Of a stretch of 37,417 nt of DNA, positions 24,955 to 35,782 are shown in pieces. Position 1 is the first letter of the stretch; every line of letters starts with the position of its first letter. The notes under the pieces are model-generated. The model was not told the DNA's origin. It saw only the letters and a program-made list of their open reading frames with translations, and did not search any database. Made by a program: the position numbers and the translations under genes. This DNA comes from Pseudomonadales bacterium (lineage in GTDB: Bacteria; Pseudomonadota; Gammaproteobacteria; Pseudomonadales; Azotimanducaceae), in assembly GCA_021295895.1 (NCBI GenBank), contig JAGWBM010000009.1, positions 1 to 37,417 of the forward strand, in the 5' to 3' direction.

Positions 24955-25040
24955 TCCATCCTCTCAAGCCACCTTTTGCAGCGCTCCCCTCCTCCAGGCG
25001 GTCGGACAAATTCCCGTTCGGTTCCCCGATCAAACGGTCT

Positions 25041-25511
25041 CTACAATCGAATGTCGGCTAGCTGAATATCGGCTAGCTCCTTGAGACTCTCGAAGGCCTC
25101 GTTGCCCTGGCTCCTCCAAAGGGGCATTTCGGCGTTGAGAATCTCCTCGCTCCAGAGTTCGAGCTTGTTCGGTTGGCCCATCACCATGACCGAGCGGTCG
25201 ATTTCCGCGTAGTTGCGCAGGATCGGGGGAATCAATACGCGACCGCTGTTGTCCAGCTCGACGTCGGTCGCGAAGCCCACGATCATGCGTTGCAGTTGGC
25301 GCACGGCCGGACGTAGGTTGGACAAACGCTCGAGCCCGTTCTCGACAGCCGTCCATTCGCCATCGGGATACAGCAACAGGCATTTGTCCTGACGGTCGAT
25401 CGTGATCACCAGCTTGCCGTCGGACCTCGATCTCAACGCATCGCGAAACCGCGTTGGCATGGCGAACCGACCGCGATCGTCCAGACTTGCCTTCGATATC
25501 CCTCGAAACAT
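25041..25511 (-). CDS. mraZ: Transcriptional regulator / first dcw gene product MraZ
   Basis: A DNA-binding protein of the double AbrB-like fold that represses the dcw operon in E. coli. The 156-residue product has both repeats: KASLDDRGRFAMPTRFRDAL near the start and ELDNSGRVLIPPILRNYAEI in the middle. The ATG at 25511 follows AGAGG by about 7 bases. The very C-terminus carries a 5-residue duplication (LADIQ/LADIR). A promoter and a set of TGGGA-type repeats upstream fit autoregulation. rsmH starts 106 bases downstream. Confidence 0.95.
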   Translation of the reverse strand: MFRGISKASLDDRGRFAMPTRFRDALRSRSDGKLVITIDRQDKCLLLYPDGEWTAVENGLERLSNLRPAVRQLQRMIVGFATDVELDNSGRVLIPPILRNYAEIDRSVMVMGQPNKLELWSEEILNAEMPLWRSQGNEAFESLKELADIQLADIRL

Positions 25512-25603
25512 GGGCGCCTCTCGAGCTTACGCGTCGGCTTCGATCCAGGTGTGGGTGGTCGTCCCTGACCCTTGCCACTTCCATGTTCAACCTAACCCGA
25601 TCT

Positions 25604-25638
25604 ACTCACAAATTCCCACAATCTCCCATAAGTTCCCC
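25604..25638 (-). promoter_or_regulatory. MraZ operator: TGGGA-type repeats with 10-base spacing
   Basis: On the minus strand, GGGGA, TGGGA, TGGGA and TGAGT occur exactly 10 bases apart (first bases at 25638, 25628, 25618 and 25608). MraZ is known to bind direct TGGGN-type repeats separated by 5 bases in the promoter region of its own operon. The two central units are perfect and the outer two are degenerate. They begin 3 bases after the predicted -10. Confidence 0.8.
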
Positions 25639-25640
25639 GG

Positions 25641-25669
25641 ACGTTACCCCCCGTCGATTGCGACGTCAA
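25641..25669 (-). promoter_or_regulatory. Promoter of the dcw cluster (Pmra)
   Basis: On the minus strand, TTGACG (25664-25669) and TAACGT (25641-25646) are 17 bases apart. The -35 matches consensus at 5 of 6 positions; the -10 is weak. The start point would fall within the MraZ repeats, leaving about 120 bases of leader before mraZ. Confidence 0.5.
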
Positions 25670-25731
25670 CAACTTTTCGTCCACGAATTTACGAAGCGCC
25701 GTGGCAACAACCGGGCGCAGACCAGCCAGGT

Positions 25732-25758
25732 CGTAGGGGACGGGCTTGTCCCGTCCCG
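25732..25758 (+). repeat. Intergenic palindromic GC-rich repeat, copy 6
   Basis: CGTAGGGGACGGGCTTG followed by TCCCGTCCCG. This copy matches the consensus completely and serves as the reference for the family. It lies upstream of the dcw promoter and downstream of the YejA-like gene. Confidence 0.8.
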
Positions 25759-25892
25759 TTGCCGAGGTACCCGGGGCGTCCGACACGGGCGACCGCGCGC
25801 CCCGGCGGCGCGTTGGGGTGAGGCCGACGAAGGCCGAACAGCCCACCGCACACTCGCGTCGTCGACCCGGGGAGCCCCGGGTGCGGCCGGGG

Positions 25893-27785
25893 TCAGCCCT
25901 CGCCGAGTTCGGCCATCCCTTCTTCGACGCGTCGAGCCTTTCCCTCGTCCCACCACCAGGCGTCCACGAAGGGCACGCGGTTCAGGTCATCGCGGCGCAC
26001 TTCGCCGAACTTGTCCCAGTGCACCAGGCGAAAGCCAGGCTGGGAGCCGAGTGGCACGAGGTAGAAGTTCCACAGGAAAACGCGATCAAAGGCGCGTGTG
26101 GCCGCGTAGAGATCCTCTGCCGTATCGGCGGCGATGGTCGCTTCGATGAGGGCGTCGAGAACAGGGCTCTGGATGCGCGCCCAGTTCTGCCCGTAGTCCT
26201 GGCCCGCGGCTTCGCTGCCGAACCAGTTGCGCAGGGCCAATCCGGGCATATGACCCGGACCCCAGCGGTTGGAGTTGCCGTCGAACTTGCCCGTCCGGCT
26301 CCGGTACAGCCAATTCGAGACTTCGGGCGAGCGTCCGGTCGTCTTGATACCCACCCGGGCGAGATTGTCGACCAACGACAGGTTCTGGCGGATCGAATAG
26401 TAGGAGACGCCAATGAAGTTGAGAGTAAGCCGTTGCCCCGTCTCGATGTTGCGCATCACGCCGTGGCGCATCTCCCAGCCGGATTGCCTGAAGAGTTCGA
26501 GGGCGCGCTTGATGCGGTCCCGGCGCAAACCGTAGCCGCTGCTCGGCGGATGTTTGAACTCCTCGGTAAACACCCGCGACGGCACCTGGTCGCGCCACGG
26601 TTCGAGGAGTTCGAGTTCCTTTTCGCCGGGTAGCCCGCTGTGCGCCATCGGCGAGTTCTGGAAGAGGCTCACGCCCTTCAGATAGAAGTTGTAGAACAGG
26701 ACCCGGTTGGTCCAATCGAAGTCGTAGAGAAGCCAAAGCGCCTCGCGCACGCGGATATCGTTCAGCGGCGGCTTTTCGGCGTTCCAGAAAATCGGCCACC
26801 ACAGTCCCTCCACCCGTGTCAGTTTGCGCAGGTCGCGCTTGAAGAGGCCCGCGCGAACCGCCGGGAAGTCGTATTGCGTCGCCCAGTTCTTGGAAACCCC
26901 CTCCTCGCGGATGTCGAAGACGTCGCCCTTGTGGGCCTCCAGCATCACGCCGTCGTCCTTGAAGTAGTCGAACTTCACGGTCTTGAAGTTGTACCGGCCT
27001 TTGTTCACCGGTATGTCGCGACCCCAGTAGCTCTCGTCCAGTTCGAACTCCAGAAGACGCCCGGTTTCGGCGCGCTTGAGACGGTAGGGTCCGCTGCCGA
27101 GTGGCGGTTCGACCGTGGTCTTGGTGATGTCGCGTTCCTCCCAATAGTGCTTCGGGAGAATCGCCTGCCCGGCGATGGCGAAGGGCAGTGCCGGGTTGAC
27201 ATCCATGTCGGTGTTGCGCACGAAGCAGACCTCTCGCTCCCCGAAGGCGAACACGCGTTCCAGGTCGGCGAGCGACGTGCGCAACGCCACCGAACCGTGT
27301 TCGAGGAACATCTCGAAGCTGTACACGACATCATCCACGGTGATCGGCCTGCCGTCGTGCCACTTCGCGTAGTCGCGCAACTTGAACGCGATCCAGTCGA
27401 GATTCTCGCCCTTGGCAACGCCTTCGGCCAAGCGTCCATAGTGGCTGACGGGTTCGTCGGCCGTTGCCTCCAGGAGCTTGTCGTAGACCAGCCCGCCGGA
27501 CCGGTCGTAGCCGGCCGCCATGCGACCCTTCTCCAGGATGTTGTTGTAGCTGTCGAAGGTGCCGAGCGAAGGCAGGCGCATCGCCCCGGTTTTCGGCGCG
27601 TTCGGGTTAGCCCAATCGAAGTGCGTGAAGTCCTTGTCGTACTTCAACGGCAGCAGATAGGAGATGCCATGCCGGTAGTCCGGATCCTTACAGGGAGGAT
27701 CCTCCGCCGTTGCCGAAAGGCTCAGAACCACCGCGGCCAAACCGAACGGCGCAACGAATTTCGCACGGAACGAGAGCCAAACCAT
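25893..27785 (-). CDS. Extracellular solute-binding protein family 5, YejA-like
   Basis: A 630-residue periplasmic binding protein of the peptide/nickel family (SBP family 5), closest in style to YejA. It has a signal peptide (about residues 1-27, ending SATA), then HGISYLLPLKYDKDFTHFDWANP and GTFDSYNNILEKG, the family core AKWHDGRPITVDDVVYSFE, and late aromatic segments LYDFDWTNRVLFYNFYL and NWFGSEAAGQDYGQNW. Such proteins feed oligopeptides or antimicrobial peptides such as microcin C to a YejBEF-type importer, but no permease or ATPase of that kind adjoins it. The ATG at 27785 has no clear ribosome site. It is divergent from the Nudix gene, with only 41 bases between the start codons. Confidence 0.9.
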   Translation of the reverse strand: MVWLSFRAKFVAPFGLAAVVLSLSATAEDPPCKDPDYRHGISYLLPLKYDKDFTHFDWANPNAPKTGAMRLPSLGTFDSYNNILEKGRMAAGYDRSGGLVYDKLLEATADEPVSHYGRLAEGVAKGENLDWIAFKLRDYAKWHDGRPITVDDVVYSFEMFLEHGSVALRTSLADLERVFAFGEREVCFVRNTDMDVNPALPFAIAGQAILPKHYWEERDITKTTVEPPLGSGPYRLKRAETGRLLEFELDESYWGRDIPVNKGRYNFKTVKFDYFKDDGVMLEAHKGDVFDIREEGVSKNWATQYDFPAVRAGLFKRDLRKLTRVEGLWWPIFWNAEKPPLNDIRVREALWLLYDFDWTNRVLFYNFYLKGVSLFQNSPMAHSGLPGEKELELLEPWRDQVPSRVFTEEFKHPPSSGYGLRRDRIKRALELFRQSGWEMRHGVMRNIETGQRLTLNFIGVSYYSIRQNLSLVDNLARVGIKTTGRSPEVSNWLYRSRTGKFDGNSNRWGPGHMPGLALRNWFGSEAAGQDYGQNWARIQSPVLDALIEATIAADTAEDLYAATRAFDRVFLWNFYLVPLGSQPGFRLVHWDKFGEVRRDDLNRVPFVDAWWWDEGKARRVEEGMAELGEG

Positions 27786-27826
27786 GCTCGAAGCCTATCA
27801 GATCGGAACGAAACTTGCCGAGGTGC

Positions 27827-28609
27827 ATGGCCGCGGACGACCAGTTGGCGTCATCGAACTCCGTTCCGATCCGCAAGGCGGCGACGATCCTTTTGCTCCG
27901 CCAGGGCAGTGCGGGCATCGAGGTGTTCATGGTGCAACGTCCGGGACGCGGCATCTTCCCGAACCTGCACGTCTTTCCCGGCGGCAAGGTGGATCCGGCG
28001 GACGACGGATTGTCCCATCTGTGCGAAGGACTCGACGATCCGCAAGCATCGTCGCAACTCGGCATGCCGAGCGGTGGCCTGCGTTATTGGGTAACCGCCA
28101 TCCGGGAGTGCTTCGAGGAATGCGGCGTGCTTCTGGCATATCGCGACCGCCGTCCTTTCGAGCCATCCGGCGACGAGGAACGCGCCCGGTTCGACGACTA
28201 CCGGGACGCCTTGGCGGCGCGCAGCGACACCCTGACCGAGTTGGCTAGGCGGGAACGGCTACGACTCGCCACGGACCGGGTGCTCTACTTCAGCCATTGG
28301 ATCACGCCGGCCTCCGCACCGGCCCGGTTCGACACCCGGTTCTTCGCCACCGCGATGCCCGAAGGCCAACAGGCGCTGGGCCACAGCGGGGAGACGGTTG
28401 CCGGCACCTGGATCCGTGCAGCCGACGCGCTGGCCAATTTCGATGCCGGGCGCTGGCAGATGATCCATCCAACCCTGACCACGCTGGGCACGGTTTCCCG
28501 GTACGCAGCCATGGATGATCTTCTCGCCGCCGTCGCCGCCCGGCGTCACCTCGACGAAGTGACGAATCTGCTGCACCAACAGGGGATGCAACACGTTGGC
28601 GGCGCTTGA
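27827..28609 (+). CDS. Nudix hydrolase with extended Nudix box (NUDT19/NUDT7-like)
   Basis: A 260-residue Nudix protein. The box is split: Gly52-Gly53-Lys-Val-Asp opens it and Arg93-Glu94 with Glu97-Glu98 (RECFEECGV) closes it, about 25 residues further than in a standard box. This insertion is a trait of the NUDT19-like group, whose known members cut coenzyme A derivatives. The N-terminus KAATILLLRQGSAGIEVFMVQRP is normal for the fold. The ATG at 27827 has GAGGT only 3-4 bases upstream; no nearby alternative looks better. It overlaps the next gene by 14 bases, so it is the first gene of the transporter operon. Confidence 0.87.
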   Translation: MAADDQLASSNSVPIRKAATILLLRQGSAGIEVFMVQRPGRGIFPNLHVFPGGKVDPADDGLSHLCEGLDDPQASSQLGMPSGGLRYWVTAIRECFEECGVLLAYRDRRPFEPSGDEERARFDDYRDALAARSDTLTELARRERLRLATDRVLYFSHWITPASAPARFDTRFFATAMPEGQQALGHSGETVAGTWIRAADALANFDAGRWQMIHPTLTTLGTVSRYAAMDDLLAAVAARRHLDEVTNLLHQQGMQHVGGA

Positions 28610-29255
28610 CGTCCTCGGGGCGGTCAAGCACTACGACGATGGGCGTGGGTTACGCCGCGTGCCGGCTGCGATCGAATTCACCTCGGCAACCGGTCGTACG
28701 ACCGCGCTGTGGGGGCCGAGCGGCACGGGCAAATCGACGCTGCTCAACCTGATGGCCGGCATCCTCGTCCCCGACGAAGGCGGTATCCGCTTTCGGGAGG
28801 ACGACGGCGGCACTTTCGACGTATCCCGCGCATCCGAACGTCAGCGGGTACGCTACCGGCGACGCCATATCGGCTTCATATTCCAGTTCTTCAATCTCGT
28901 GCCGACGCTAACCGTCGCCGAGAACGTGGCCCTGCCGGTAGAGCTCAACCGGCTTGGCCAGCGCGAGGTCGCGCTTCGGCGCCTCGAAACCCTGGGTCTC
29001 GCCGATTGTGCCAACCGATTCCCGGAGACGCTCTCCGGTGGCGAGCAGCAGCGCGTCGCGATCGCCCGGGCGTTGGCCCACCGCCCCGCGATCGTCCTGG
29101 CCGACGAACCGACCGGCAATCTCGATGCCGACAACGCCGACGCCGTCACCGAGTTGCTGTGGCAGGAGGCGCAACAAGCCGGCTGTAGCCTGGTGGTCGC
29201 CACGCACAACCGAAGGATCGCCGACCGGGCAGACGAGGTGATCGCGCTGGCGTGA
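28596..29255 (+). CDS. ABC transporter ATP-binding protein (LolD/MacB type)
   Basis: A 219-residue ATPase of the LolD/FtsE/MacB group. It has Walker A GPSGTGKST, the Q-loop FIFQFFNLVPTLTVAENV, signature LSGGEQQRVAIARAL, Walker B IVLADEPTGNLD, and the switch His in VVATHNRRIADRADE. The start is a TTG at 28596 inside the end of the Nudix gene, with AGGGGA nine bases upstream. The permease gene follows after 4 bases. In this class the ATPase drives lipoprotein release or periplasmic mechanical work rather than plain import. Confidence 0.93.
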   Translation: MAALDVLGAVKHYDDGRGLRRVPAAIEFTSATGRTTALWGPSGTGKSTLLNLMAGILVPDEGGIRFREDDGGTFDVSRASERQRVRYRRRHIGFIFQFFNLVPTLTVAENVALPVELNRLGQREVALRRLETLGLADCANRFPETLSGGEQQRVAIARALAHRPAIVLADEPTGNLDADNADAVTELLWQEAQQAGCSLVVATHNRRIADRADEVIALA

Positions 29256-29259
29256 GCCG

Positions 29260-31710
29260 ATGATCTCTCTTCTGAAGAGCCAACTGCGTTTCGCGATGAG
29301 GCACCCCGTGGGACCGGCCACGTGCCTGACGGGGGTGACACTCGCGGTTCTCGCCGTCGTGGTCGTTCACCTGGTCAGCCAGTCGATCCGTGCCAATCTG
29401 GACGAACCTCGCATCGCCGGGCACACCCACGTCGTTACGGGCGAGACGTTGACCGAGTCCGCCTATTTCGAGTTGCGCCGCCGATGGCGCCGGTCGGGCA
29501 CCGACTTCGAAGACCCGGCCGCAACGGTGAGCGGGGACCGGACCTGGGCTCGTTCGGTTCTCGCGATGTTCCCCGTCGTCGAGGGATTCGTCGACATCCG
29601 AGGTGAACCGCGACGCGTCCTCGGGTTCGATCCCGTGGCGGCCGGCAATATCCGCTCGCTTTCGGAATACGAAGCCAGCGCACCGGCCACGCCTCAAGAC
29701 TCGACGCCCGACAACACCGACGGCTACGGCCGTTTCATCACCGACGACGTGATCATGGTTTCGCCCGAAACCGCTCGCGACATTGCCGCCGACGGCGGGA
29801 CGATCGCCGGCCTTCCGATCGACACCATCGACGCCCCGACACAGGTCGCCCTAGCCGACCTGCCGACCGCGCAGCGACTGCTGGGGCGAGGCGGCGAGGT
29901 CGACGCCATTTGGCTACGGGTCGCGGGCGTCCGTACGCGCTTTCTCGACTGGCTGGACAGCGTGCTGCCCGGCATCGGCGCCAGTCTTCCCGAATATGCC
30001 GATCCCGAGATCGGCGGCTACACCGTCACCGCCGCCGCCCGCTGGAATCCGTCGCGCCGTTTCGCGGACGCCATCCTGTTCAATCTCGGCATGCTGTCAC
30101 TGCTCTGTCTGGTAATGGCTGCCTTCATTGCCTTTCAGGCGAGCGAATCCAACGCCGCCCGACGACGCCTCGAACAAGAACGGCTGATCGCCATCGGTGC
30201 GTCCCGATGGACACTGCGGTGGATGGTCTGTGCGGAGGGCCTCGTGATCGGGGTGCTTGGGGCGGCCGCCGGCCTCGCCCTCGGCTCCCTGGTGGCAGAT
30301 GCACTCCTGCAGGCGGCGACCGACACCGCGACGACCGATGCGGACACCGACGCGATGGGGTATGGCGTGGCCCTGGACGCTTGGGTCGTTGGCAAGGCCA
30401 TCGCCTGCGGCGTCGTGGTGTCGGCACTCGGCCCCATGGCCGAGGGCCGGTTCTCACCGAGTACCCGTATCCGGGGCGTCGTGGGGCTATTGGCGGCGGC
30501 GGTCGCCGTCGTCGGCCTTGTCGACGGCTCCCTGGGTTGGGCATTCGGCGCGCTCGCGGCCGTCTGCGCCGTTCAAGTCGTGATCGTCGTACCCCTCGCC
30601 GGATGGACGGCGGGTCGCCTGTCGCGCCTCGGGCGCTCCTTGGCCATGCGTTCCAACCTGCGCGCCACCGCGCTTCGCAGCAGCGAGATCCGCCTGGCCC
30701 TAGGCGCCCTGTCCGTGGCCGCGGCGGTCGCAATCGGCATGGGAGTGATGGTCGAGAGCCTGCGGCGGGACTTCACCGACATGCTCGATGTCCGTCTTGC
30801 CGACGGCGTCTACCTCGAGACGGCGTCCGACATTCGCGAGGCCGATCTCGATGCCATCCGCCACCTGGCCGGTGTGCGCGACGTGCGCCTCTACGGCGAT
30901 GGCGTCGCCCGGAGCGACGACGGTCCCGTGACCATTCGCATTGCACGGTTGGACGCGACCGAGGCTGGTCGATACGGCTTCGACGCGGCGCTCGAGACCC
31001 GCGGCATGGTCAACGAAGTGGGTGCCCGGCTCATGGGCATCGGCGATGGCGACGTCCTGGACCTCGTCAGCGCGGGTCGTCGCGTCCGCGTGGAAATCGC
31101 CCACGTCTTCCGCGATTTCGGCGCGGCGTCGCCCCGGGTAATCCTGCCCATGACCTTCGTCCCCCAACTCGACGCGGACTCCGTTCGCTGGCGGCGGGTA
31201 TCCGTTTGGCCCGATGCGGATGCCACCGAGAGCCTGACCGCTCAACTCGGCGAACGCTACGGCGCAGGCCGCGTGCGCAACCACGCTCAGATCCGCGACC
31301 TGGCGGTCGCCGTGTTCGACCGCACCTTCGTGGTCAGTCGCTCGCTCGCCGTAATGGCCCTCCTGGTCGCGGCCATTGGGCTCTACGCCGCCTTGACGTC
31401 TCTGCAGGCAAGCCGAGCCCGAGAGTTCCGCCTGCTCTCAGCCGTCGGCCACACCCGCGCCGAACTCATGCGTCTAGCCTTGTCCCAGACGACCGTACTC
31501 GGGGCAGTCGCCCTGCTCGCCGCGTTGCCACTCGGCTTGACCATGGCGTGGATACTTTGCGACTTCGTCAACCCGGCTGCCTTCGGATGGTCGATCGGCC
31601 TTCACCTCGACTTCAGGTCAATCGCCGGACCGCTGCTGCTCGGCGCCCTGGCCGCCTGCGCGGCGGGAGCGGTGCCGGCATATCGCGTGGCCTTTAGGGG
31701 ACTGCCGTAG
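29260..31710 (+). CDS. FtsX/MacB-like ABC permease with two FtsX modules
   Basis: An 816-residue permease. It has a first membrane helix (about 20-42), a large periplasmic region (about 45-260), a first FtsX core (ILFNLGMLSLLCLVMAAF near 268, then helices around 325, 370 and 410-450), a second periplasmic part (about 490-690), and a final core with SLAVMALLVAAIGLYAAL (694), TVLGAVALLAALPLGL (745) and GPLLLGALAACAAGAV (790). It is a fused two-module form, so a single gene may supply the work of two permeases such as AttF and AttG. It lies between the ATPase and the AttH-like lipoprotein with 4- and 7-base gaps. Confidence 0.9.
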   Translation: MISLLKSQLRFAMRHPVGPATCLTGVTLAVLAVVVVHLVSQSIRANLDEPRIAGHTHVVTGETLTESAYFELRRRWRRSGTDFEDPAATVSGDRTWARSVLAMFPVVEGFVDIRGEPRRVLGFDPVAAGNIRSLSEYEASAPATPQDSTPDNTDGYGRFITDDVIMVSPETARDIAADGGTIAGLPIDTIDAPTQVALADLPTAQRLLGRGGEVDAIWLRVAGVRTRFLDWLDSVLPGIGASLPEYADPEIGGYTVTAAARWNPSRRFADAILFNLGMLSLLCLVMAAFIAFQASESNAARRRLEQERLIAIGASRWTLRWMVCAEGLVIGVLGAAAGLALGSLVADALLQAATDTATTDADTDAMGYGVALDAWVVGKAIACGVVVSALGPMAEGRFSPSTRIRGVVGLLAAAVAVVGLVDGSLGWAFGALAAVCAVQVVIVVPLAGWTAGRLSRLGRSLAMRSNLRATALRSSEIRLALGALSVAAAVAIGMGVMVESLRRDFTDMLDVRLADGVYLETASDIREADLDAIRHLAGVRDVRLYGDGVARSDDGPVTIRIARLDATEAGRYGFDAALETRGMVNEVGARLMGIGDGDVLDLVSAGRRVRVEIAHVFRDFGAASPRVILPMTFVPQLDADSVRWRRVSVWPDADATESLTAQLGERYGAGRVRNHAQIRDLAVAVFDRTFVVSRSLAVMALLVAAIGLYAALTSLQASRAREFRLLSAVGHTRAELMRLALSQTTVLGAVALLAALPLGLTMAWILCDFVNPAAFGWSIGLHLDFRSIAGPLLLGALAACAAGAVPAYRVAFRGLP

Positions 31711-31717
31711 GACGACG

Positions 31718-32869
31718 ATGTCGATACCCGCAAGGACATTTACCCGGGCTTGGCACGCGACCGCCGGCACCGCCGTCGTCTTGTTGGTCGGCTGCAGCGA
31801 ACCCGAACGCCATGCATCGCCAAGTCTCCGATCGATCCTCGGCGGCACCGATGGAGCCGACGCCGGATTCGCCCGTGCCGAGAAGATCCGCGAGTTCGTG
31901 TTTCCCCGCGACCATGGACCGCATCCGGCGTACCGCAGCGAGTGGTGGTATCTGACGGCTGTCGTCTCGACCGCCCGCACTGCACAGGTGGAAGCGCGCG
32001 AGTTCGGCATCCAATTCACGTTGTTCCGGCAGGGGCTCGAAGCGCGCCCCGGGGAAGGCCCCGCAGCGGGCGACGGACCGAATGCCTGGCGCACCGGGCA
32101 AGGCTATATGGCGCACGTCGCGTTGTCGGACGTCGCCGCGCGCCGCCACTTGGCGGCCGAACGCTTCAGTCGCGGCCACCCGGCACTTGCCGGCGCACGC
32201 ACGGGACCGTTCCGGGTCTATCTCGACGATTGGCGGCTCCAATCCACCGCTGACGACTTCTCACCGCTGCGCCTGACGACCGCGACCGCCGGCTTTTCCG
32301 CCGACCTGGTGTTGACCGCCACGAGGCCCGCCATCCTGCAGGGCGAAGGGGGACTGTCGCGAAAAGGACCCGACAACGCCTCCTACTACTATTCTCTGCC
32401 ACGCATCGAGGCGCGGGGCGAACTCGTGGTTGGGGGTTCGAGGTACGCGGTAAGCGGGCTCGCCTGGATAGACCGGGAGTGGAGCACGAGTGTGCTCGGT
32501 ACGGACTACCTGGGGTGGGACTGGTTCGCGTTTCACTTCGACGACGGTCGCGATCTCATGCTGTACCAACTGCGTCGGCTCGACGGACGTACCGACGACT
32601 ACAACGCCGGCAGCCTCGGCGACGGCAGGGTCTCGCGAACGTTGACTGCAGATGACTTCTCGCTGGCCCCGATCGAGTACTGGCACGGCTGGCCCGTGGC
32701 GTGGAAGCTCGAACTTCGCGGCACCGAGCCCCAGCAATACGTCATTCGCGCCGCGATCAAGGACCAGCTCATGGACACGTCGGTGCGATACTGGGAAGGC
32801 GTGGCCCATCTGGAAGACGGCGCGGGCCGGCGACGAGGGGCGGGGTACATGGAACTGACGGGGTATTGA
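31718..32869 (+). CDS. AttH-like lipoprotein (DUF2006/CrtC-like calycin)
   Basis: A 383-residue lipoprotein with the lipobox LVGC (Cys26). The AttH/CrtC family (PF07143, PF09410) is seen in FPRDHGPHPAYRSEWWYLTAVV, FGIQFTLFRQGL, and the C-terminal VSGLAWIDREWSTSVLG, GWDWFAFHFDDGRDLMLYQLR. Structures of relatives show a double calycin barrel, and a role with lipids or carotenoid-like compounds has been proposed but is not proven. Its genes usually adjoin an ABC exporter, as here. The lipoprotein is probably the periplasmic partner of the permease; whether it stays in the inner membrane or moves to the outer one is not shown. Confidence 0.88.
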   Translation: MSIPARTFTRAWHATAGTAVVLLVGCSEPERHASPSLRSILGGTDGADAGFARAEKIREFVFPRDHGPHPAYRSEWWYLTAVVSTARTAQVEAREFGIQFTLFRQGLEARPGEGPAAGDGPNAWRTGQGYMAHVALSDVAARRHLAAERFSRGHPALAGARTGPFRVYLDDWRLQSTADDFSPLRLTTATAGFSADLVLTATRPAILQGEGGLSRKGPDNASYYYSLPRIEARGELVVGGSRYAVSGLAWIDREWSTSVLGTDYLGWDWFAFHFDDGRDLMLYQLRRLDGRTDDYNAGSLGDGRVSRTLTADDFSLAPIEYWHGWPVAWKLELRGTEPQQYVIRAAIKDQLMDTSVRYWEGVAHLEDGAGRRRGAGYMELTGY

Positions 32870-32874
32870 ACAAC

Positions 32875-33429
32875 GTGAAGCTCGACTGGGATAGGGTCCG
32901 CTCCGAGCGGGGACCAAACCTCGGCATCCTCGATGTCCGGTTCGACTGGATGCGCCACCCGGGGGGCGAACCGGTGCTGAAACGCCTGGTCCTGGAGTCC
33001 GTGGACTGGATCAACATCGTGGCGCTCGACGCCGAGGGCTTGTCGATCATGGTCGACCAGTACCGTTTCGGTATCGGCGCCCGGACGCTCGAGACGCCGG
33101 GCGGTATGGTCGATCCCGGTGAAGACCCGTTGACGGCCGCGAAACGGGAACTGCTCGAGGAAACCGGCTACGGCGGTGGCGAGTGGCGCTATCTCGGCGC
33201 GGTGGAACCCAACCCCGCGATCCACCCGCACCTCTGCCACCACTTCCTGGCGGACGGCGTCGAGCGAGTCGCCGAGCCCGACCCGGGCCCGGGCGAAGCC
33301 ATCGGTCTCGAGTTCCTGTCCCTCGATGGTATCCGTGCGGCGATGGCCGACGGCCGTCTCCGGCATGCACTGGCACTGTCCGCCCTGGCGCGCGTGTTTC
33401 CGCTGTTCGACGACATGCACCACCGATAG
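32875..33429 (+). CDS. Nudix hydrolase (ADP-ribose pyrophosphatase-like)
   Basis: A 184-residue protein with a perfect, uninterrupted Nudix box from Gly77 to Gly98: GGMVDPGED, then Arg91-Glu92 and Glu95-Glu96 in AAKRELLEETGY. The upstream strands (VDWINIVALDAEGLSIMVDQYR) fit ADP-ribose pyrophosphatase-type members; the substrate is unknown. The start may be the GTG at 32875, or a TTG at 32866 that overlaps the attH stop (187 residues). It closes the five-gene operon and shares no close sequence with the first Nudix gene. Confidence 0.88.
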   Translation: MKLDWDRVRSERGPNLGILDVRFDWMRHPGGEPVLKRLVLESVDWINIVALDAEGLSIMVDQYRFGIGARTLETPGGMVDPGEDPLTAAKRELLEETGYGGGEWRYLGAVEPNPAIHPHLCHHFLADGVERVAEPDPGPGEAIGLEFLSLDGIRAAMADGRLRHALALSALARVFPLFDDMHHR

Positions 33430-33491
33430 CGCCTACCGACGTCCCGAACCAACCAGGGGGCTTCTAGGCACCACATGGGCGACCGCTCGGG

Positions 33492-33520
33492 CGGGACGGG
33501 ACAAGCCCGTGCCCTACGCG
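33492..33520 (-). repeat. Intergenic palindromic GC-rich repeat, copy 7
   Basis: CGGGACGGGACAAG followed by CCCGTGCCCTACGCG, minus orientation, with one change in the arm (GTGCCC for GTCCCC). It lies in the 227-base gap between the second Nudix gene and the PLP enzyme. A fragment CCCGTAGGGA follows at 33536-33545. Confidence 0.75.
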
Positions 33521-33656
33521 TTTCCGCGGCGCAGGCCCGTAGGGACCCAATCGCGCCGGTTTGGGACGCACCCTCGCCCGCCAATAGGTGTGTGTGCGGC
33601 GAAGGCACCGAGCGGGGTTATAGTCCCGCCAAGTAACGCACGTTCGGATACCAGCC

Positions 33657-34886
33657 ATGCCGGGTTTCACGACCTCCATCGTTCACTCCGACCGCCGGGG
33701 CGGCATCGAGCACGGTTCGCTGCAAAAGCCTGTCCACGCCACCGTCGCCTACGGCTACGAGGACGTCCAGGATCTCGCCGACGTCTTCCAAGGGCGGAGT
33801 TCCGCGTACTCCTATGGGCGGCAGGTGAACCCGACGGTCACCGCGCTCGAAACAAAGATCAACGCCATGGAACGGGGCGTCGCAACGGTCTGCTTCGGCA
33901 CCGGCATGGCAGCCATCGGCACGCTGCTGTTCGCCCTGTTGCGCAAGGGCGACCACTTCGTGTCCAGTTCGTTCCTGTTCGGCAACACCAACAGCCTGTT
34001 CCAGACCTTTGGCCTGCACGGCGTCGACGTGACCTTCGTGGACGCGACGAGCGCCGCCGTGGTGGCCCAAGCCATACGCCCCGACACCCGCCTCGTGTTC
34101 GTCGAGACGATCGCCAACCCGCGCACGCAAATCGCCGATCTCGAAGGCATCGGCGAACTCTGCCGCGCGAAGGGTCTGGTGTACGTGGTCGACAACACGA
34201 TGACGTCGCCGTACCTGTTCCAACCCGTGGGGGTGGGAGCCTCGCTGATCGTCAACAGCCTGACGAAGTACATCGGTGGCCACGGCACCACGCTCGGGGG
34301 TGCGGTGACCGAAACGGGTCTCTTCGACTGGTCGACATTCGACAATATCCAGGACACCTACAAGAAGGGCGATTCGGCAAAGTGGGCGATCACCCAGGTC
34401 CGCAAAAAGGGCCTACGCGACTTCGGCCCGAGCCTGGGTCCGGAAGCCGCCCACCACCTCGGTGTCGGCGCCGAGACACTGGCGCTGCGCCAGGAACGTC
34501 AGTGCGCCAACGCCCGGGCCCTCGTGGACTTCCTGAACGGCCACGACAAGGTCGCACGGGTCTACTTCCCCGGCCTCCCCGACCATCCGGAGCACGAACG
34601 GGCAATGGCACTGTTCCGACACCCCGGGGCCTTGTTCAGCTTCGAGCTTGCCGACGGTATGGACACGTTCGCGTTCCTGAACCGACTCGACGTGGCCATC
34701 AAGTCCAGCAACCTCGGAGACAATAGGACGCTGGCGATCCCGGTCGCCCAAACGATCTACTACGAGATGGGCGCCGAGCGCCGGGCCAGCATGGGCATTG
34801 CCGACTCGTTGATCCGGATTTCGACAGGGATCGAGGATATCGAAGACCTGCTCGCCGATTTCGAGCAGGCACTCGCCGAGGAGTAG
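33657..34886 (+). CDS. Cystathionine gamma-synthase family PLP enzyme
   Basis: A 409-residue enzyme of the Cys/Met metabolism PLP-dependent family (PF01053), which includes cystathionine gamma-synthase, beta/gamma-lyases and O-acyl-homoserine sulfhydrylases. It has SSAYSYGRQVNPTVTALE, the cofactor region CFGTGMAAIGT, VVDNTMTSPYLFQP, and the PLP lysine Lys204 in SLTKYIGGHG; the C-terminus VRISTG-like LIRISTGIEDIEDL is standard. The exact reaction cannot be told from sequence. The ATG at 33657 has CGGA near it. A TATAGT at 33619-33624 may be its -10, but no good -35 is seen. No other sulfur gene adjoins. Confidence 0.92.
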   Translation: MPGFTTSIVHSDRRGGIEHGSLQKPVHATVAYGYEDVQDLADVFQGRSSAYSYGRQVNPTVTALETKINAMERGVATVCFGTGMAAIGTLLFALLRKGDHFVSSSFLFGNTNSLFQTFGLHGVDVTFVDATSAAVVAQAIRPDTRLVFVETIANPRTQIADLEGIGELCRAKGLVYVVDNTMTSPYLFQPVGVGASLIVNSLTKYIGGHGTTLGGAVTETGLFDWSTFDNIQDTYKKGDSAKWAITQVRKKGLRDFGPSLGPEAAHHLGVGAETLALRQERQCANARALVDFLNGHDKVARVYFPGLPDHPEHERAMALFRHPGALFSFELADGMDTFAFLNRLDVAIKSSNLGDNRTLAIPVAQTIYYEMGAERRASMGIADSLIRISTGIEDIEDLLADFEQALAEE

Positions 34887-34936
34887 CATCGGATCTCCCC
34901 GGTGGTGCACATTCAGACTATCTAGACCGCTACGGC

Positions 34937-35782
34937 GTGTTGAAGCGTCTTGCTACCCGCGCGGCTATTCCGACAGACTTGCAGCCCACATACCGTGCTG
35001 CGGGACACTTGGCCGTGACCGTCGAACCCGTCAGGCTGCGACTCGATTCCGCCCCGGCGAGAGCAGTGGGCACCGCCGTGGACATCCTGTCCGCGTGGCT
35101 GCCGGTCGGGCATTTGCGCCTGGGCGGCGGCACCGCGCTGGAAGCCCGCTGGCACCATCGGTCCAGCACGGATCTGGACTTTTCCTTCACACCGGGGACG
35201 GGACCATCCGGCGCCCTGTTCCTCAAGAACTTCAACGACATCAGGAAGGACCTGCACGGACTGGCCCGCGACGGGGTAATCGTACGAGACAGCGTGGTGA
35301 TGGTCGGGACGAACCACATCCAGTTCATGGTCGGCGACGTCCCCGTGTCGTTCGTCGGAACCGAGATGTTCCACGGCGACCCGCGCGATGAGGTGGAGTA
35401 CGAGACCGGAGTGATTCTCGGCGGCACCAGGGACATCCTGACGAAGAAGATGTACAACCGTCTCGGTGTCAACCACATCGCGACCGAACGAGACGCCTAC
35501 GACTTCGCCGTGGCGCGCACGCTCGCCCCGGACGACCTGGTCTACGCCTGGTCCACCCTGACGGATGACATGCAGCGGGACACGCTGGCGGCCTATCGGG
35601 ATCTGGCCGAAGGCGAAGGCCACGCACGGCCCCAAGCACTCGTGAAACCCAGATTCGACTGCATCGCCTCCCAAGTGTGGCAGCAGGTCCTGTGGATGAT
35701 GGAGAGCAATCTCGCGTACGTGCCGCCGTTGACGCAAGGCGACGGCGACGTTGGCCATGGGGGCGACGGACATGGGCGCTGA
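34937..35782 (+). CDS. AbiEii/AbiGii-like nucleotidyltransferase
   Basis: A 281-residue protein with the nucleotidyltransferase signature of the AbiEii/AbiGii toxin family (PF08843): LRLGGGTALEARWHHR at residues 61-75, then STDLDFSF with Asp79 and Asp81 as the metal-binding pair, and a later ILTKKMYNRLG that fits the family's Lys-containing helix. AbiEii enzymes are toxins of type IV toxin-antitoxin pairs that transfer nucleotides, some to tRNA. The usual antitoxin AbiEi, which normally precedes the toxin, is absent. The start at GTG 34937 has no visible ribosome site, so a later start is possible. It overlaps the next gene by 11 or more bases. Confidence 0.75.
   Translation: MLKRLATRAAIPTDLQPTYRAAGHLAVTVEPVRLRLDSAPARAVGTAVDILSAWLPVGHLRLGGGTALEARWHHRSSTDLDFSFTPGTGPSGALFLKNFNDIRKDLHGLARDGVIVRDSVVMVGTNHIQFMVGDVPVSFVGTEMFHGDPRDEVEYETGVILGGTRDILTKKMYNRLGVNHIATERDAYDFAVARTLAPDDLVYAWSTLTDDMQRDTLAAYRDLAEGEGHARPQALVKPRFDCIASQVWQQVLWMMESNLAYVPPLTQGDGDVGHGGDGHGR

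Follow-up and report, generated by a model that had tools for sequence, protein, structure and literature searches.

The question raised by this locus is why an ABC transporter is enclosed by two genes for Nudix hydrolases. In the window, the whole stretch of 37,417 nucleotides that was analysed, five genes lie on the forward strand with a spacing of at most 14 bases. These are NudA (27827 to 28609; a Nudix hydrolase of 260 aa with a long insert inside the Nudix box), an ABC ATPase with a TTG start (28596 to 29255; LolD/YbbA/MacB/FtsE group), a double-length FtsX-type permease (29260 to 31710; 816 aa), an AttH-type lipoprotein (31718 to 32869; a tandem lipocalin with CrtC N-terminal and Lipocalin_9 domains) and NudB (32866 to 33429; an ADP-ribose-type Nudix hydrolase, 187 aa counted from TTG). 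NudA and the ATPase gene overlap by 14 bases, and gaps of 4 and 7 bases separate the permease from the ATPase and from AttH, respectively. The TTG start of NudB at 32866 gives a 4-base overlap with the AttH stop, and the alternative GTG at 32875 gives a 5-base gap. Gene by gene, the Pfam domains over the cut-off were NUDIX, ABC_tran, FtsX in two stretches, CrtC plus Lipocalin_9, and NUDIX, the two Nudix genes being scanned as longer frames (NudA from 27710, NudB from 32701). The enclosure described in the earlier note is thus real. It also exceeds what chance would give, since PF00293 has 9 matches in the host genome of 3.39 Mb (about one per 377 kb), but two of them fall within 5.6 kb here, and the same gene order is found in 38 of 200 genomes of one gammaproteobacterial family. 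A simple sigma-70 scan of positions 25000–35500 gave no promoter-like site (1.4 in shuffled sequences).

The two Nudix genes, which had been called unrelated, share the same Pfam domain and are unrelated only at the level of the subfamily: they are not close paralogues, and the best BLASTP piece between them spans 13 residues (E 0.01). In NudA (PF00293, 3e-9), the box is split by the insert, FPGG...RECFEECG, and the pattern of FPGG, 20–60 residues and RE..EE.G was found in 43 of 44 family NudA loci. NUDT19 has an insert in its Nudix box, and the CoA motif of the NUDT19/NUDT7-type CoA diphosphatases is L-[LI]-T-x-R-[SA]-x3-R-x3-G-x3-FPGG. None of the 44 family NudA loci carries the motif in this form. 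The sole PDB sequence match of NudA was 3qsj (E 3.9e-18), which is entered as undetermined in PMC5389931. NudA was also modelled structurally, with three sequences as input; the mean pLDDT was 39.9, and the model was discarded. NudB (PF00293, 2.3e-15) matches the ADP-ribose pyrophosphatases 1v8i (4.4e-15) and 1mk1 (4.7e-15), and the box GX5EX7REUXEEXGU was found in 52 of 53 family NudB loci. The motif given for ADP-ribose pyrophosphatases is a single proline in the loop after the Nudix box (PMC5389931), and a proline downstream of the NudB box aligns with it in both structures. NudB resembles these enzymes in its intact box and in the aligned proline behind it, although the nearest solved chains reach only about 59 bits and the activity is a predicted one. 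For the ADP compounds hydrolase NudE (NF008736), the score of 48.5 bits is below the equivalog cut-off of 169.

The middle three genes, hereafter the cassette, all lie on one strand and encode an ABC ATPase, an FtsX permease and, next to them, a lipoprotein with PF07143 and PF17186, which is the composition of an AttH-type type VII ABC cassette. The ATPase (ABC_tran, 1.3e-32) has LolD as its best PDB match (2.5e-41), followed by YbbA (4.2e-38). It is below the cut-off in all 25 NCBIfam models listed, so that "LolD-type" stands only as a label of the nearest family; apart from this name and "NUDT19-like", the gene names of the earlier note were borne out. The permease (PF02687, 3.6e-22, in two stretches) gave no PDB match at E 0.01 in a single-sequence search; a profile search matched LolF, LolC, LolE and MacB, and weakly YbbP (9ge6_A, E 2.4e-5, no single stretch passing alone). 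AttH (PF07143, 2.5e-53; PF17186, 1.2e-28) has a lipobox LVGC with Cys26, read by eye, and is the sole PF07143 match in the host genome at E 0.001. The residues noted for the carotenoid 1,2-hydratase CrtC are His239, Trp241, Tyr266 and Asp268 (PMC4717167).

Three known systems are comparable with the cassette. The window AttH matches 2ich, "Putative AttH" (8.1e-46), which is NE1406 of Nitrosomonas europaea, a protein with a tandem lipocalin-like fold that is linked to LolD and an ABC ATPase by genome context (PMC2954199, sections 3.3 and 3.4). Glycerol and CHES are reported in its crystal, and lipid transport has been proposed for it (PMC2954199). The two proteins share the tandem lipocalin and the ABC gene context, whereas sections 3.3 and 3.4 of that paper name no Nudix gene. 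The cassette also resembles the type VII ABC system YbbAP-TesA of E. coli in its YbbA-like ATPase, its one double-length FtsX permease and its periplasmic partner. However, the partner is TesA in the one and a lipocalin lipoprotein in the other, and the profile search connects the permease with YbbP only weakly. TesA hydrolyses esters and thioesters, acetyl-CoA included, and the functions of both LolCDE and YbbAP-TesA are described in PMC12646458. No TesA-type esterase was found among the five array genes, and AttH occupies that place. LolCDE is likewise similar in that LolD is the best match of the ATPase and LolF, LolC and LolE are profile matches of the permease, but it has two permeases, LolC and LolE, in place of the one double permease of 816 aa. 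Membership in LolCDE was rejected on this single permease gene and on TIGR02211 (170.6 bits against a cut-off of 307.75).

The distribution of the array was analysed in 200 genomes of the family, taken as one set across the gene searches. The complete array is present on one contig in 38 of them, which belong to 13 genera; since the order is kept across 13 genera, it is old. The window's genus is represented by 16 genomes, and in 11 of them a single contig carries the full array; in one of the 11 (G001), NudA and FtsX are fragmented. Among the other five, G002 stops at contig edges, G012 is without NudB, G015 has NudA on a separate contig, and the array of G006 and G007 is broken between FtsX and AttH. 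The 121 family genomes bearing AttH can be grouped by their Nudix orthologues into those with both (56), NudA only (22), NudB only (9) and neither (34). Where a genome has both AttH and NudB, the two are neighbours in 63 of 65 cases, and of the 78 genomes with NudA and AttH, 60 have NudA at 2.5–6 kb on the upstream side; the FtsX sequences of the family often share no more than about 30% identity with the window's. These counts cover the close NudB class (E below 1e-50) and two partial matches (G432, G232), leaving aside the distant NudB class, fragments, second matches of NudA (three, near 1e-47) and second pieces of AttH (three). In L130, of a sister genus, a distant NudB was seen by eye directly behind an enoyl-CoA-hydratase-like gene. 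In 16 of 20 further family AttH loci, all from genomes without one or both Nudix orthologues and some ending at contig edges, the stretch has no Nudix gene of any kind. Variation of the Nudix genes beside AttH in close relatives, which the earlier note had named as counting against its proposal, is therefore clear in the family, with 34 of 121 genomes having neither, while the window's genus is whole in 11 of 16.

Outside the family, the recurrence in distant taxa that the earlier note had named as support was not seen: a Nudix gene was found nearby in 2 of 115 AttH loci, which is no more than background, and one of the two is encoded on the other strand, at a distance of about 8 kb. The ABC-FtsX-AttH trio itself is present in most AttH loci mapped, inside and outside the family. 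The stretch covered extends 4.5 kb or more upstream and 1 kb or more downstream of AttH in 88 of the 115 loci. L151, which is without Nudix, was counted as outside, yet the AttH trees place it amid rows from the family, to which it may belong. A first detector of two family profiles and a strict motif found 5 of the host genome's 7 other Pfam Nudix genes (the profiles missed three, and the motif regained one) and 13 of 13 control loci, themselves picked for their similarity to NudA or NudB. The 115-locus survey also drew on a general profile, on BLAST and on a loose motif; the general profile recovered 7 of 7 in leave-one-out at E 0.01, with a small set of 20 loci. The named scan covered the best 80 of at least 593 loci. 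Among the papers listed in the literature searches, no title or abstract opening connects AttH with Nudix genes, which does not prove that no such link is in print.

Each half of the array also occurs without the other. NudA and NudB are adjacent, 42–202 bases apart, in 25 of the 200 family genomes, from three genera (18 in g22, 6 in g145, 1 in g16), and AttH had no match at E 1e-20 in these 25. Both Nudix boxes are intact in 9 of 9 cassette-free loci examined; several cassette-free genomes are incomplete (e.g., G394 and G476, 68%), and G400 has stops inside NudA. In g22, the completeness-corrected median genome size is 2.87 Mb for the 18 cassette-free genomes and 4.58 Mb for 9 cassette-bearing ones (Mann-Whitney p 1.3e-4, relatedness ignored). 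No such contrast is seen in g145, with six cassette-free genomes of 2.59–3.03 Mb and one cassette-bearing genome of 2.91 Mb. Conversely, the genera g2, g44 and g136 have the cassette without Nudix genes. In the AttH tree, which omits 14 of the 44 rows that a wider tree had from outside the family, these (5 rows, support 100) join the AttH of g22 (4 rows) with a branch support of 98. This suggests that the transporter alone was transferred among the g2/g44/g136 and g22 lines, as far as can be told from quick trees in which many branches are weak and which have no species tree beside them.

The NudA-NudB pairs without a cassette, and the cassette found alone and seemingly mobile, could also be read in the reverse direction, as an ancestral NudA-NudB pair split by insertion of ABC-FtsX-AttH, possibly more than once. 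We regard this history as unlikely. For its 53 scored rows, the NudB tree needs two state changes, and the cassette-free rows sit within groups of cassette-bearing rows, from which we infer loss of the cassette rather than its gain, a polarity as provisional as these quick, weakly branched trees, drawn without a species tree. Loss also fits better than insertion because 22 genomes with NudA and AttH have no NudB and 9 with AttH and NudB have no NudA. A mobile insertion with flanking repeats was rejected: the scan of positions 27500–33900 gave short imperfect repeats, none paired across the cassette ends.

The tight overlaps and the complete array in 38 of 200 genomes and 13 genera might instead point to one functional unit, in which NudA and NudB cleave an acyl-CoA or nucleotide-linked lipid and the transporter moves the lipid part to AttH. 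The thioesterase activity of TesA, acetyl-CoA included, in the comparable YbbAP system (PMC12646458) and the gene neighbour of the distant NudB in L130 would agree with it. It is nevertheless very unlikely, as the Nudix pair and the cassette each persist alone, the association is without recurrence in the 115 outside loci, the CoA motif is missing from 44 of 44 NudA sequences, and the Nudix proteins are by eye without signal peptides, whereas AttH is a lipoprotein. The functional link suggested earlier is accordingly not supported as an obligate one, and a shared substrate is weakly suggested at best. A looser arrangement, in which all five genes share a promoter and are useful under one condition (e.g., redox stress or stress on the envelope) with no substrate in common, would agree with the long-conserved order and with the split arrays of G006 and G007, which keep NudA-ABC-FtsX together and AttH-NudB together; the gene content is, however, variable in the family, and we consider this quite unlikely. 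A highly improbable variant is that NudA and NudB act as a conserved module of two enzymes, retained even where the genome is small, and break down a nucleotide- or CoA-linked lipid precursor. ABC-AttH would then be an optional arm for export or retrieval of the freed lipid, deleted or exchanged by lineages as one block from its place between the two enzyme genes.

The array is probably two things side by side, a transporter cassette and a Nudix pair, joined through shared ancestry within a single gammaproteobacterial family. Of these, the cassette would be a dispensable type VII ABC-lipocalin system that draws a hydrophobic, lipid-like molecule from the inner membrane. The outer genes would encode Nudix pyrophosphatases, presumably cytosolic and independent of the cassette, and are neighbours in many genomes without the transporter. 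Their shared putative operon is probably a product of descent within the family. Two or more lineages seem to have lost the cassette from between NudA and NudB, and the cassette appears to have entered other genera on its own. Some selection on the putative operon is likely, because passive linkage rarely maintains such tight overlaps so long. AttH-type ABC systems are widespread, and the gene context is among the few clues to their cargo. The Nudix neighbours are a poor clue of this kind, being confined to one lineage and separable from the transporter. Species of one genus with or without the cassette at the same spot offer a natural comparison.

The layout described in the earlier note, five consecutive genes on the + strand, was confirmed by reading of the sequence and Pfam matches. 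Within a host genome of 3.39 Mb in 166 contigs, NudA, a Nudix gene with a long insert in its box (27827-28609), overlaps an ABC ATPase gene (28596-29255) by 14 bases; after a 4-base gap follows a double-FtsX permease gene (29260-31710), and after a 7-base gap the gene of an AttH-type lipoprotein (31718-32869), which overlaps NudB (32866-33429) by 4 bases, or precedes it by 5 bases if NudB starts at GTG 32875. The divergent upstream gene (25893-27785, - strand; SBP_bac_5, 7e-46), of peptide-type binding-protein character, begins only 41 bases from the NudA start and runs towards what we take to be mraZ. Downstream, a cystathionine-gamma-synthase-family PLP-enzyme gene (33657-34886) lies 227 bases from NudB. 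Next to it, in the window and in five close relatives too, is an AbiEii-like nucleotidyltransferase gene (34937-35779, + strand; PF08843, 26 bits against a cut-off of 22.5).

The three genes between the Nudix genes are referred to as the cassette hereafter. AttH matches PF07143 and PF17186, and a PDB sequence search linked it to the solved 'Putative AttH' 2ich (8.1e-46). The nearest PDB relatives of the ATPase are LolD (2.5e-41) and YbbA (4.2e-38), and it falls below the cut-off of every one of the 25 NCBIfam models shown. The permease as a single sequence had no PDB match at E 0.01; its 13-sequence profile reached LolF, LolC, LolE and MacB, and YbbP weakly. Because of this likeness to LolCDE and YbbAP, the cassette would be a type VII ABC system extracting a lipid or hydrophobe, and AttH the putative periplasmic receiver of the extracted molecule. 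In PMC12646458, LolA is described as the acceptor of lipoproteins from LolCDE, and a transfer of membrane lipids from YbbAP to TesA is proposed; the AttH structure paper (PMC2954199) proposes lipid transport and describes LolD and ABC genes as associated with AttH. Alternatively, AttH may have an enzymatic role, as the related CrtC does.

The Nudix box is intact in both NudA and NudB, and comparison of the two indicated that they are not close paralogues. NudB is, from its sequence, of the ADP-ribose type. The only PDB relative of NudA by sequence is 3qsj, entered as undetermined in PMC5389931. Since the CoA motif is absent from all 44 NudA sequences, 'acyl-CoA hydrolase', in line with the acyl-CoA handling once speculated, is an unproved guess for NudA. 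The two would most simply be cytosolic pyrophosphatases of the housekeeping type, where we infer both location and substrates.

Among 200 genomes of the family, which we take to be gammaproteobacterial, 121 hold AttH, 110 a NudA orthologue and 93 a close NudB orthologue. A single contig carries the whole array in 38 genomes, spread over 13 genera, and AttH and NudB are adjacent in 63 of the 65 genomes holding both. The array is whole in 11 of 16 genomes of the window's genus (one, G001, has NudA and FtsX in pieces). Of the 121 AttH genomes, 56 have both orthologues, 22 NudA only, 9 NudB only and 34 neither. Thus, the gene order is old and kept in the family, yet far from universal. In two genomes, G006 (loci L039/L127) and G007 (L041/L128), the operon is broken between FtsX and AttH, and some 31 kb of a single contig separate NudA-ABC-FtsX from an oppositely oriented AttH-NudB. 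One TGA occurs inside the NudB matches of G006 (G006:C112:112061-112597) and G358 (G358:C1:1870420-1870956), and the NudA match of G400 (G400:C27:62590-63348) holds an internal TGA and TAA; these stops may be decay or sequencing error.

The Nudix pair also occurs without the cassette. In 25 of the 200 genomes (18 of genus g22, 6 of g145 and 1 of g16), NudA and NudB stand side by side, 42-202 bases apart, with no AttH match at E 1e-20, although some of these genomes are incomplete (g16's G394: 68%) and G400, with its stops in NudA, is among them. Both boxes were intact in all nine such loci examined closely. In a quick NudB tree of 62 rows with many weak branches (scored rows: 44 cassette-bearing, 9 cassette-free), two changes of state are needed, and rows lacking the cassette are nested among those that have it. 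The completeness-corrected median genome size in g22 is 2.87 Mb for the 18 cassette-free genomes versus 4.58 Mb for nine cassette-bearing ones (p 1.3e-4, uncorrected for relatedness), a difference that loss of the cassette during genome reduction would predict, but no size contrast was found in g145. By eye, an SDR gene lies beyond NudB in the cassette-free loci L107, L115 and L121; L115 also has a protein resembling HMG-CoA synthase there, and L121 has proteins resembling enoyl-CoA hydratase and biotin-dependent carboxylase.

Conversely, among 20 further family AttH loci from genomes without one or both Nudix orthologues, 4 had NudA, whereas the stretches of the other 16 contained no Nudix gene of whatever class. 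In a 99-row AttH tree, likewise quick and with many weak branches, five Nudix-free sequences of g2, g44 and g136 form one group (support 100) that joins four g22 sequences (support 98); other Nudix-free family sequences (L063, L252-L255) are placed among non-family ones. As NudA had no match in those three genera at E 1e-46 and their NudB matches are all of a distant class, the likeliest reading of these sequences is that the cassette moved into those genera without the Nudix genes, although a close relationship between them and g22 may account for the same grouping. In the sister genera g44 (L130) and g9 (L134), a NudB of a distant class has an enoyl-CoA-hydratase-like gene as its direct neighbour (L130) or in its vicinity (L134), and a gene resembling NudA runs in the opposite direction about 3 kb off.

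The ABC-FtsX-AttH trio also occurs widely beyond the family: the best 80 of at least 593 loci include Gammaproteobacteria, Geomonas, Gemmatimonadetes, Chloroflexi, Cyanobacteria, Planctomycetota and others. Further families are represented among 40 AttH loci from the window's order, two of which belong to the family itself. The proposed recurrence with Nudix genes in distant taxa was not borne out. An improved Nudix detector found such a gene in 2 of 115 non-family AttH loci (1.73 Mb; 88 of the loci extend 4.5 kb or more upstream of AttH and 1 kb or more downstream), against about 4-5 expected by chance at the host genome's one Nudix per 377 kb: one on the same strand about 2.7 kb downstream of AttH (L096), the other on the opposite strand about 8 kb off (L165). 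Since Nudix genes and cassette are each also kept where the other is missing, the proposed special unit, in which two Nudix enzymes enclose an envelope transporter, is not supported as an obligate one. The simplest answer is that shared regulation would explain the tight gene spacing long kept in the family.
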